This document shows positions 2,486 to 20,139 of a DNA stretch of 64,000 nucleotides, in pieces; the stretch's first letter is position 1, and each line of letters begins with the position of its first letter. The stretch lies in NCBI RefSeq assembly GCF_026004055.1, contig NZ_BPIJ01000001.1, positions 1,178,001-1,242,000 of the forward strand, in the 5' to 3' direction. This DNA comes from Meiothermus sp. GTDB lineage: Bacteria > Deinococcota > Deinococci > Deinococcales > Thermaceae. The notes below the pieces were generated by a model. It had not been told where the DNA came from. It saw only the letters and a program-made list of their open reading frames with translations, and ran no database searches. The translations under genes were made by a program, and so were the position numbers.

Positions 2486-3910
2486 GTGCGCGCTATGGGA
2501 ACAATGGATCGTATAAGCATAAAGCATCCGAACCTTCTCAGCCTGTTGGGTTTACTGGTCTGGGGCGTGGTTTCGTTTTTGTATTTGCCCGATAGCTACC
2601 AGGCTTTTAGTTTTCTATTTTTGATGCCGGGGGTCTGGAAGGGCGGCCTGAGGAGCCTGCGCTGGCTGGCACCGTTGCTGATTGTATACACGGCTACGCA
2701 GCATCTTTATCCCGCGTTCAACCTAAGCCTGGACAGTATGTTGGTGACGACGCTTCCAGGTCTGGTAGCGCTGGGTTTGGTGGCCTGGTTACGTGAGCGG
2801 GATCGGCGTACCCAACAAGAACTCGAGGAATCGCTGCGCTTCATGCATTTGCTCGAGGAAGGCAGCCTCAATATCAGCACCGCCGGCGACCCGCTGGAGC
2901 TCACCGAAAGCGCCATGTCGGCCCTGCACAACCTTAACATCGCACCCCACCTGGCCTTTGTGCGCTTCCGCGAGGGCAAGCCGGTGGTGGTGAGCGCACG
3001 CGGCGCCCTCGAGCGCTACCGTGGACGACACCTACCCCAACAAAAACTCAGCACCCATGCCTCGCTAACCGATAGCTTTACCGTCGGCAACTACCTCGAG
3101 GGCATCCCCGAAAGCGCCGGCTGGTCTACGGCGGCGGTTCCGGTCTCGGCCCGACAAAAACGCCCTTTGGGGGTAGTGATTCTGGCCCGGGACGGCAACA
3201 AACCCTTCCAATCCGACGAAAAAGCCATTGCCAACTCTTTAGCTCGGGTAATGGGGGCCCAGCTAGGGCAGATGGAGGCGCTCAAGCATCTCGAGGACGC
3301 CTACGACGGCACTTTACGGGCTTTGGGTCTGGCCCTAGAATTCCGCGACCACGAGACCCAGGGCCATACCAAGCGGGTGGTGGCCTGGGCCGACCAACTG
3401 GCCCAAGACCTGGGCCTAGATGCCTCCATGCGCAAATTCCTCCGTTGGGGCGCCTACTTGCACGATATCGGCAAACTCTCCATCTCCGATCAAATCCTGC
3501 GAAAACCCGACAAACTCGACGAGGAAGAATGGGAGATCATGAAGAGCCACGTGGTTAAGGGCTGGGAAATGCTTTCACGGGTGCCATTTTTGCCCCAAGA
3601 GACCTTAGAAGTGGTACGACACCACCACGAAAACTGGGATGGCAGCGGCTACCCCGACGGCCTAAAGGGTCAGGACATTCCCATTCTGGCGCGTATTTTT
3701 GCGGTAGTAGACACCTTCGATGCACTCTACAGCCCCCGCCCCTACAAGCGGGCCTGGAAACCTGCAGAAATTATCGAGGAACTGAATCGCCTGAAGGGTA
3801 AAAAGCTCGACCCCAAGCTGGTGGACATCTTCATCACACGCATCACCTCGCCCTCTGGCAAAGAAGCTATGGAGGTTGCCAACCCTAGCAAGGCTAATGT
3901 CAAAGCCTAA
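2486..3910 (+). CDS. Membrane-anchored GAF/HD-GYP phosphodiesterase
   Basis: Probable c-di-GMP phosphodiesterase of 474 residues. Hydrophobic segments fill about residues 15-95 (membrane anchor). A short charged helix with coiled-coil character, a GAF-like sensor domain (about 120-270) and an HD-GYP domain (about 285-460) follow. The metal-site His-Asp lies in YLHDIGKL (about 325-332), and the signature reads HHHENWDGSGYPDGLKG (about 378-394), so the catalytic residues appear intact. The start is uncertain: GTG 2486, or ATG 2495 or 2507; TACATT at 2471-2476 and AGG at 2478-2480 favour 2486. A GGDEF protein at 28.7-30.0 kb could supply the opposing activity. What the GAF domain senses is unknown. 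Confidence 0.92.
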   Translation: MRAMGTMDRISIKHPNLLSLLGLLVWGVVSFLYLPDSYQAFSFLFLMPGVWKGGLRSLRWLAPLLIVYTATQHLYPAFNLSLDSMLVTTLPGLVALGLVAWLRERDRRTQQELEESLRFMHLLEEGSLNISTAGDPLELTESAMSALHNLNIAPHLAFVRFREGKPVVVSARGALERYRGRHLPQQKLSTHASLTDSFTVGNYLEGIPESAGWSTAAVPVSARQKRPLGVVILARDGNKPFQSDEKAIANSLARVMGAQLGQMEALKHLEDAYDGTLRALGLALEFRDHETQGHTKRVVAWADQLAQDLGLDASMRKFLRWGAYLHDIGKLSISDQILRKPDKLDEEEWEIMKSHVVKGWEMLSRVPFLPQETLEVVRHHHENWDGSGYPDGLKGQDIPILARIFAVVDTFDALYSPRPYKRAWKPAEIIEELNRLKGKKLDPKLVDIFITRITSPSGKEAMEVANPSKANVKA

Positions 3911-3924
3911 AATCTGATAGTCCA

Positions 3925-4269
3925 TAGTGCTCTGGTAACTAAATTTCCGAAGTTTTGTACCGCACCCCGAATACATCGTTGTAGAGATTCCATCCCACTT
4001 CGGCCCCCGAGATGGCCTAAAAACGCCCTCCCTACCGCGTAGGGAGGGTGGGGGAGGGTATCAGGCAAGGCCCCCAATCCGCTGCGTGAAGGGCCAGGTC
4101 AGCCACCCCACCTGGCCTCCCCTACGCAGTAGGGGAGGAAAGGGGCGAAGCGGGGTGGGGTGCTTTTTGCATGACCGTACAGGCAAGGCACCGAAGGCCC
4201 AGGTTTACGAGACACGGCGCGTTCTGAAGGCTAAACCCCATACTGCGTATTTTGTTACCAGACCACTAA
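3925..4269 (-). repeat. Repeat family A, copy 1 (MITE-like)
   Basis: About 345 bp, with terminal inverted repeats TAGTGCTCTGGTAAC (3925-3939) and GTTACCAGACCACTAA (4254-4269). It lies in reverse orientation relative to the other four copies. The interior holds two strong hairpins: CCCTCCCTAC near 4049 with its partner, and CCTCCCCTAC with CTACGCAGTAGGGG near 4130. No real gene is inside; a frame encoding MKGQVSHPTWPPL recurs in copies only because the DNA recurs. Family B copy 1 abuts its right end. Confidence 0.9.
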
Positions 4270-4474
4270 ATGGTCTAGTAACAAAGTATGTGACCCCACT
4301 TCTCCCGTCATTGCGAGCATCCGCAGGATGCGAAGCAATCCAGAATCCCTGGCCTGGCCAGCCTGCACAAGGTTATTTGGATTGCTTCGTCGGCGGGGGC
4401 CTCCTCGCAATGACAAGGGGCTCACATTTGGATTTGTAAGGGCGAAGTGACGTAAATCAGCTTACCAGACCAAT
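4270..4474 (+). repeat. Repeat family B, copy 1 (short form)
   Basis: About 205 bp bounded by TGGTCTAGTAAC and TTACCAGACCA, almost the same tips as family A but a different interior. The core is the pair CATTGCGAGCATCC and GAAGCAATCC against GGATTGCTTC and CTCGCAATGAC, which can fold into a long hairpin. Similar core sequences are widespread in bacterial intergenic DNA (from memory). It directly follows family A copy 1, with no unique DNA between. Confidence 0.85.
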
Positions 4475-4628: not shown

Positions 4629-5694
4629 ATGCAGCTATTTCCACCTCTTTATAACGACCCACTGGCCGAACTTTTCCATACTCGAGTACCCGCCGGCGAG
4701 CCCTGGGCCTGGGTGCTGTGCCAACGCATTCTGGCCGACGAAACCCTGGCCCGGCGCCTGCTATCTGAGCCCCTGAGCCCCGGAATGGCCGACTGGATTG
4801 GTCAGGAGTTGGGGCACCTGCGGCGGGAGTTGGAGCACCTCCAAAAGCAATACCCCTTTTCGGACTTCGGCCACCGCACCCCCAGCGCCGCCGAAAGCGC
4901 CGCGCTGAAAGTACTGCTGCAAGGTTCGCCCACCTCTTTACAACGCTTCTATCAAACCTACGGCTATGGCATCTACGTCCACCACACGGCCTTCCTTTTC
5001 AACCGCCAAATGCAGGCCATCGAGAAACCAGACCCCGCACGCTTTGACGACCTGGTGGGCTATGCCCGTCAAATCCATACCCTGCGGGCCAATGTAGAGC
5101 GTTTTTTTGGCGGGAAAGCCCGCCGTTCCAATGCTCCTGTATGGGGCCAGGGGCACCGGCAAGTCCACTTCGGTCAAGGCCCTGCGTACCCAATATGCCG
5201 ACCGGGGCCTAAGGCTGATAGAAGTGCTTGCGGATGGTCTGGAACAACTGCCCGCCCTGCTAGAGCTGCTGGCTCCATTGCCTTACAAGTTCGTGCTCTA
5301 CATGGACGACCTGGCCTTTGCCGGCGACGACGAGCGATTTCACAAGCTGAAGGCCCTGCTGGAAGGAGCTGTTTACGAGCGACCCTCCAACGTGCTGGTT
5401 GTAGCGACCTCCAACCGCCGTAACCTGGTGACGCAACACTGGTCGGATCGGCCCGCCCCCGATGCCAACGACCCCGCTTCCTGGGACACCCTGCAAGACA
5501 AACTGGCCCTGGCCGACCGCTTCGGGCTGGTGCTTACCTTTCCCCCTTTCGACCAGCAGCTCTACCTGGAAGCTGTGGCTTACATTCTGGGGCACGAACT
5601 CGACGAGGCCACCCACCAAGCTGCTTTGCAGTTTGCCCTCGAGGGCCGCGGGTTCTCGGGCCGCACCGCGCGGCATTTTGCCAACCAGCAGTAA
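4629..5694 (+). pseudogene. DUF815-type AAA ATPase with a +1 frameshift at a T7 run
   Basis: The two halves of one protein lie in different frames. Bases 4629 to about 5108 encode the N-terminal helical part (ending ANVERF). From about 5107 the frame shifted by one carries LAGKPAVP, the P-loop GARGTGKST, a Walker B-like YMDDLAF, the sensor VVATSNRR, and the C-terminal lid to stop 5694. Removing one T from the run 5102-5108 restores one protein of about 354 residues with the expected order. It may be a disrupted gene, a sequencing error, or a real slippage site. A TAAAAT box at 4615-4620 ends eight bases before the ATG, suggesting a leaderless start. The role of this predicted P-loop family is unclear. 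Confidence 0.85.
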
Positions 5695-5715: not shown

Positions 5716-7362
5716 TCAAGGGCGCTCGAGCGGCTTTAGCAAAGGCTGGCGTTTGCGCTCGAGGGCCGCACCAATAAATCCGGCAAAAGGCGGCGAGACC
5801 CGCATGGGGCGGCTGGAAAGCTCGGGATGGGCTTGCAGGCCGATAAAGAAGGGGTGATCGGGCAGTTCGATGGCCTCCACCAGCCCCGCTCCTCTCCCCT
5901 GCACCCCCGGCGTCACCGCCGAGACCGTCAGGCCACCTTCGATAAGTTGCTGGACATAAGCGGGGTTCACCTCGTAGCGGTGGCGGTGCCGCTCAAGAAC
6001 CAGTTCCTTGCCATAGAGCTTGTAGAGCAGGGTTTCGGGGTGGATCCGCATGGGCCAGTTGCCCAGCCGCATGGTGCCGCCCATGCCCTCGACTTCCAAC
6101 TGCTCGGGCATCAGGTCGATTACCGGGTGGGGAGTGTAGGGGTCGAACTCGGTGCTGTTGGCCCCCTCGAGTCCCAACACATTCCGGGCAAACTCGATGA
6201 CCGCAATTTGCAACCCCAGACAAATACCAAAGTAGGGCACGCGGTTCTCACGGGCATAGCGGGCGGCCCAAATTTTGCCTTCGATGCCACGAATTCCAAA
6301 CCCAGGCCCCACCAACACCCCATCCACATCGCCCAGCAATTCGGCGGCCCTGCTCAGGTCGGTGATGTCCTCGGCGTTGACCCACTTCACGTTCACCCGT
6401 GCATCGTGGGCAATCCCCGCATGACGGAAAGCTTCCAGGATGCTCAGGTAGGCATCGGGCATCTTCACATACTTACCTACGAAGGCCACCGTTACCTCGT
6501 CGGCCGGGTGTTTGAGCTTGCGCACGGCATTCTGCCAAAAGGTCAGGTTGGGCTGAATCGGCTCCAAACCTAGCTTTTTTTCCACTACCCGGCCCAAGCC
6601 CTGCTCCTCCAGCACCAGCGGCATCTCGTAGAGGTATTCCACGGTGGGACTGCTAAAAACCTCGCCCGCGTGCACATTGGTAAAGAGGGCCACCTTTTTG
6701 CGTACATCCTCGGGCACCATTTTTTCCGAACGCAGCACCAGCACATCGGGCTGGATACCCACCCCCCGCAGGGTGGAGACCGAGTGCTGGGTGGGTTTGG
6801 TCTTGAACTCTTCGGAGGTCGCCAGATAGGGCACCAAAGTCAAATGCAGGTACATCAAGTCCTGGTCGTCTTCGTCGAACTGGAACTGCCGAATGGCTTC
6901 TAGGAAGGGCAGGCTCTCGATGTCGCCCACCGTACCGCCTACCTCCACCACCACGATCTCGGCGTTTTGCTCCTGGGCAGTGCGGCGGATGCGGTCTTTG
7001 ATCTCGTCGGTGATGTGTGGGATTACCTGCACGGTCTGAGAGAGGTACTCCCCGCGCCGCTCTTTTTGAATGACCGAGAGATACACCTGCCCGGTGGTGA
7101 TGTTGTTGGCACGGGACAGGTCGATGTCCAGAAAGCGCTCGTAGTGGCCGATGTCCAGATCGGTTTCGGCACCGTCACCGGTGACAAACACCTCGCCGTG
7201 TTCGTAGGGCCGCATGGTACCCGCGTCCACATTGACGTAAGGGTCAATCTTGATGGCGGTCACGCGGTAACCGCGCCCCCGCAGGATGGCTCCGAGGCTC
7301 GAGGTGAGAATACCCTTGCCTAAACTGCTGACCACACCGCCCGTAACAAAAATGTATTTCAC
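5716..7362 (-). CDS. pyrG: CTP synthase
   Basis: Makes CTP from UTP, ATP and glutamine (pyrimidine synthesis). It has 548 residues, the normal family length. The synthase domain opens with KYIFVTGGVVSSLGKG, whose glycine-rich P-loop is complete, and contains KIDPYVNVDAGTM and GGTVGDIES. The C-terminal class I glutamine amidotransferase domain carries the nucleophile Cys in YFGICLGLQ and a catalytic His-Glu pair in the QAHPEL region. The frame extends upstream, but the real start is GTG 7362, because homology begins exactly there. It converges with the DUF815 pseudogene, 21 bases apart. Feedback control by CTP is expected from the family. Confidence 0.97.
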   Translation of the reverse strand: MKYIFVTGGVVSSLGKGILTSSLGAILRGRGYRVTAIKIDPYVNVDAGTMRPYEHGEVFVTGDGAETDLDIGHYERFLDIDLSRANNITTGQVYLSVIQKERRGEYLSQTVQVIPHITDEIKDRIRRTAQEQNAEIVVVEVGGTVGDIESLPFLEAIRQFQFDEDDQDLMYLHLTLVPYLATSEEFKTKPTQHSVSTLRGVGIQPDVLVLRSEKMVPEDVRKKVALFTNVHAGEVFSSPTVEYLYEMPLVLEEQGLGRVVEKKLGLEPIQPNLTFWQNAVRKLKHPADEVTVAFVGKYVKMPDAYLSILEAFRHAGIAHDARVNVKWVNAEDITDLSRAAELLGDVDGVLVGPGFGIRGIEGKIWAARYARENRVPYFGICLGLQIAVIEFARNVLGLEGANSTEFDPYTPHPVIDLMPEQLEVEGMGGTMRLGNWPMRIHPETLLYKLYGKELVLERHRHRYEVNPAYVQQLIEGGLTVSAVTPGVQGRGAGLVEAIELPDHPFFIGLQAHPELSSRPMRVSPPFAGFIGAALERKRQPLLKPLERP

Positions 7363-7541
7363 AAAACCCCCGTCCTGCGCCGGAGCCTGTCCAGCACTCC
7401 AAAAGCTTCTTTTCAAAGGCTCAACCGGTACGGTGGAGCCGCCAAACTATCACGGGATTTAATCGTACCATGACCTGCCCCCTCTATGTCCAGGCACGTG
7501 GGCACGGTTGGCCGTGCAGCTACGCAAAAAGTTTGACTTTG

Positions 7542-20075: not shown

Positions 20076-20139
20076 AACATCCGCCCGCACGACTGCACAA
20101 TCTGCCTTCGTCCCCCTGCTACACTAAGGGTCGGCTGGT

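Follow-up and report, generated by a model that had tools for sequence, protein, structure and literature searches.

A DUF815-type ATPase gene of Meiothermus sp. is split into two reading frames at a run of seven T in the genome assembly, and the most probable explanation, to which we give a probability of about 0.55, is that the extra T is a one-base overcall made in sequencing or assembly. The true DNA of the cell would then read CGT TTT TTG, with six T and the seventh absent from the living cell, and would carry an intact gene for a 354-aa DUF815 AAA-type ATPase. The stretch analysed, here called the window, is 64,000 nucleotides long.

The sequence TTTTTTT occupies exactly window positions 5102-5108, and an earlier note on this DNA, which had placed a break of the DUF815 ATPase there, was accurate to the base. 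The open reading frame at 4629..5423 encodes 264 aa, of which the N-terminal 158 residues (MQLFPPLYND...ANVER) are followed by a tail out of the frame used in relatives. The P-loop half lies in the adjacent frame, beginning FLAGKPAVPMLLYGARGTGKS... and remaining stop-free over 5104-5694, so the translations bear out the claim that the two halves are in different frames that meet at the run (Table 1). Removal of one T does restore a full-length protein, as had been proposed: the predicted product is 354 aa with six T, 264 aa with seven and 194 aa with eight. A single protein in a relative spans both halves consecutively, with the matches overlapping at the T run (for example L058, with 83% and 90% identity), and these consecutive matches to one protein indicate that the split is beyond chance. 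The run itself is ordinary in its surroundings, as 12 T7 and 7 A7 runs were counted in the window.

Table 1. Features at and around the frame break, in window positions.
Feature	Position	Strand	Observation
Neighbour gene of the ATPase gene	2486-3910		
N-terminal half, DUF815-type ATPase gene	4629..5102	+	158 codons, ATG start; aligns with N-terminal part of relatives' single ORF
T7 run, frame-break site	5102..5108	+	One T in excess of the open frame, judged from sequence, relatives and run-length variants
Out-of-frame tail under seven T	5103..5423	+	Translation; ends at the stop of the 264-aa ORF
P-loop half, DUF815 (PF05673)	5104..5694	+	196 codons and stop, no internal stop; profile match
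G+C stem-loop GGCGGG-AAAG-CCCGCC	5109..5124	+	-13.1 kcal/mol, z -3.32; abuts the T run, within the coding region
Neighbour gene of the ATPase gene, opposite strand; presumably CTP synthase	5716-7416	-	

The P-loop half matched the Pfam DUF815 profile (PF05673.19) with an E value of 2.5e-65 and a score of 220.6 bits, far above the cut-off of 23.8, which identifies it as a DUF815 member. The match covers most of the profile (positions 47-244 of 249), and the break, peculiar to this genome among those searched, comes before position 47. The N-terminal half had no Pfam match and aligned with the start portion of the single ORF of relatives. No NCBIfam family was found for either half, a PDB sequence search with the P-loop half returned no match, and a PADLOC search gave just one weak match, 27 residues long. 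Searching this genome with the P-loop half showed the ATPase gene to be present in one copy. The surrounding DNA also carries repeats. A palindrome of CCCTAC, 2-8 bases and GTAGGG occurs in the window at 4030, 4120, 19173, 40590, 40680, 54921 and 59170, with 64 copies in a 652-kb sample of this genome and two upstream of the ATPase gene. An intergenic, near-perfect inverted repeat, TTTGTTACCAGACCACTAAATGGTCTAGTAACAAA, lies at window 4251-4285, and a distinct inverted repeat of similar form is found at about 15,900 in L099.

When 60 relatives and the genome itself were searched with the P-loop half, the DUF815 gene was present in 50 of the relatives, including 16 of the 17 genomes of the same genus. 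All 50 carriers have an uninterrupted frame through the site, at least 346 aa long and with no stop within the match; in this genome it measures 198 aa. The site was read base by base in the best-scoring 29 of these 50 carriers (L004-L032), where the longest T run measured two in 10 loci, three in 9, four in 3, five in 5 and six in 2, and where the Phe-Leu codons at the site vary freely. A run of seven T was seen in none of these 29 loci. In two loci of the same genus, L009 and L011, the in-frame run is exactly six T, as would be required here. With every carrier open and none of the loci read having seven T, the split belongs to this genome alone among those searched.

Nei-Gojobori dN/dS ratios were calculated between this genome and ten of the 16 same-genus relatives. 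The N-terminal half gave 0.09-0.19 and the P-loop half 0.08-0.14, compared with 0.10-0.21 and 0.06-0.28, respectively, among the relatives themselves. These ratios show strong purifying selection on both halves, equal to that in the relatives, so the full protein was under selection until very recently. Neither relaxed selection (from dN/dS with the ten relatives) nor a second lesion (from a check of the frame) was seen in either half. As purifying selection is undiminished on both halves, the break is either very young or not in the cell at all.

In order to gauge how accurately this assembly records homopolymers, about 652 kb of the genome (the window and 30 further stretches, with some 4 kb of overlap with the window) were compared with 1.36 Mb of G002, a relative, and with stretches from three more relatives, giving matches to 264.7 kb of the genome's own sequence. 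A total of 138 runs of at least seven bases touch such a match. One continuous frame crosses 124 of them, two are internal breaks, and the other 12 sit at gene ends, close to a start or where a fetched stretch stops. Besides the T7 run, the internal breaks comprise a C8 run at L157:19204 (G000 C2, about 919,204), also with one extra base, in a galactose-oxidase-like gene with Kelch and GO-like_E_set halves; the corresponding frame in G002, taken from stop to stop, has 1017 aa. G002 has a gene of its own broken at a C9 run (L138, about 1160-1195), which we take to be an acyl-CoA dehydrogenase gene and of which this genome has an intact orthologue (L101:10461-12074). The assembly is thus mostly sound at runs of at least seven bases, with occasional single-base gains. 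The break counts are compatible with either rare errors or ordinary mutation, and the rate that they imply is biased upward by the choice of the window for its break. Runs of A7 and T7 are denser here than in G002 (17.8 and 11.9 per 100 kb, respectively); systematic overcalling was considered as a reason for this excess and dropped, since most of the runs sit in intact frames.

Further candidate breaks were considered. A listing of the window against stop-to-stop reference ORFs gave positions near 7320, 7500, 11400, 14520, 20100 and 23820; the candidates at 7528 and 11445, which came up again in a later comparison, and those at 20100 and 23880 were gene starts, ends or boundaries, and those at 7320 and 14520 failed to recur in two later comparisons. 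Candidates in L095, L099 and L101 were dropped as a gene boundary, non-coding sequence and a gene intact here, respectively. Ten candidates were listed in the 652-kb sample, of which only the window T7 and the L157 C8 stand: those in L101 and L154 have an intact frame on the side of this genome, and those in L090, L144, L148, L150, L158 and at window 7528 were judged by eye to be boundaries or non-coding. The G002 side gave 16 candidates, with L138 the one checked on that genome's own ORFs; seven of the 16 came from two short frames of this genome (L142, L094) with many matches, which are probably dispersed repeats.

Directly 3' of the T run lies a strong stem-loop (Table 1). At the equivalent position in the 29 relatives the stability ranges from 0.0 to -12.5 kcal/mol and the shape is not fixed; L017 has a stem-loop nearly as stable, and most of the others are weaker. 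The structure probably arises as a side effect of the Ala-Gly-Lys-Pro-Ala codons, and its position beside the run may have aided slipping in replication or in sequencing.

Several observations favour a one-base overcall. This is the only split genome among the relatives searched, the gene is a single-copy one that nearly all of the genus retains and that selection kept until very recently, and two same-genus loci show the six T in frame. The C8 break in L157 is a change of the same kind and direction, and the stem-loop abutting the run is a context that would be expected to be hard to read. PMC3711429 adds that singleton frameshifts validated by BLASTp are expected to be sequencing errors and not true indels. 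The case also resembles the single-base homopolymer indels of bacteria that arise as errors or mark recent pseudogenes: there is one extra base, neither half is otherwise damaged, each carrier examined has an undamaged orthologue, and the change is confined to one genome; no difference from these was found. Against an overcall, this assembly shows no general weakness at homopolymers, and a true fresh mutation predicts the identical picture. The earlier note had named sequencing error and fresh mutation as the simpler explanations, a caveat that still stands with the break unique among the genomes searched, and we regard all other readings, even taken together, as improbable.

A genuine and very recent gain of one T by replication slippage, inactivating the gene in this strain, is possible, though we put it at less than even odds. 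Six T is the likely prior state, from which seven is a single slippage step; most runs of at least seven bases are correctly framed in this assembly, which argues for a real change, and the C9 break in G002 is a similar one. Against it stand the single-copy retention of the gene throughout most of the genus and the lack of relaxed selection or a second lesion; a sequence error likewise predicts this lack of decay. If the mutation is real, RNA polymerase might slip by accident and restore a little full-length protein, with no selection for this. According to PMC6260861, the RNA polymerase of E. coli prefers poly(T), with slippage undetectable below seven T and about 10% deletion at T8. This puts T7 at the very edge of the slippage range, where weak accidental slippage may occur. 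That the polymerase of this thermophile slips often enough to maintain a functional ATPase, with the lesion tolerated through repair in the transcript, seems to us a long shot.

The earlier note had further called controlled slippage like that of Thermus dnaX conceivable. The T7 run would then yield both the full-length ATPase and a 264-aa truncated form, in the manner of tau and gamma. The run is of the minimal length for the E. coli enzyme, no stop interrupts the downstream frame, which is under purifying selection, and the genus retains a slippage run in dnaX. That run served as a positive control. Among dnaX loci, obtained for 30 of the 37 genomes searched, 15 of the 17 from the same genus (including L068, from this genome) have an A9 run in a conserved context, and L076 and L080, the other two, are short loci that seem to stop ahead of the site. 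The Meiothermus context is mostly GGG(A)9CTAGCGGAT or a close variant. The dnaX A9 is kept across species, so slippage runs retained in this group are conserved, whereas the ATPase run is not: its length drifts between two and six T in all 29 loci read, no second split genome was found among those searched, and the tails of the seven-T and eight-T products are absent from relatives. Both are A or T homopolymers inside a coding region of related bacteria, but the dnaX run is nine long and conserved where the T7 is shorter and unique, and an unslipped dnaX message gives the long product where an unslipped T7 message gives the broken one.

Published run lengths point the same way. PMC1088944 describes the Thermus A9 and reports that in many genomes selection against slippage becomes visible at a length of nine nucleotides, and PMC3711429 gives programmed slippage runs as typically at least eight bases, with T runs longer than eight; together with PMC6260861, these place efficient slippage at about 8-9 bases or more, above the seven T found here. 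Restoring the frame would also need a deletion, and deletions in homopolymers are rare in E. coli according to PMC5574713. The mxiE-type slippage of Shigella, which PMC1088944 describes, is alike in that the full product would need slippage; it uses one added nucleotide, whereas the ATPase T7 needs a deletion or a two-base gain and is split in no relative. A literature search found no relevant report of a homopolymer frameshift in Meiothermus. We consider programmed slippage at this run very improbable.

Phase variation, in which changes of run length would turn the gene on in some cells and off in others, is less probable still. The break is one unit of a homopolymer, but an out-of-frame run length occurs in no relative (50 carriers, 29 read at the site), and seven bases is short for a contingency tract.

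Programmed ribosomal frameshifting has next to no standing. Slippery heptamers for -1 shifts follow the pattern X XXY YYZ, which the zero-frame U UUU UUU fits, with the strong stem-loop directly 3'. However, stem-loop and run are not a useful -1 site, because a -1 shift enters the eight-T frame, which stops after 194 aa without reaching the downstream coding region. The P-loop frame requires +1 or -2, the zero-frame A-site codon is UUU with no stop codon to drive a +1 shift, the stem spacing is 0 nt, and stem and run are both unconserved. Equally negligible is a real gene split into two separately translated proteins: both halves are open, but the 264-aa ORF overlaps the second by more than 300 bases, the first in-frame ATG (5131) is just past the stem-loop without a clear ribosome-binding site by eye, and no carrier is split.

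Should the extra T be an error, annotation ought to record the ATPase gene as intact, and the run would need rechecking; a real mutation would mean a loss, at the level of this strain, in a conserved gene whose function is unknown. Significance beyond this genome would come only with proof of slippage, and transcript repair at T7, if true, would be a natural test of the shortest rescuable run at high temperature. As a by-product, the comparison provides a clean contrast between the dnaX A9 run, conserved through Meiothermus, and the DUF815 run, which is not.
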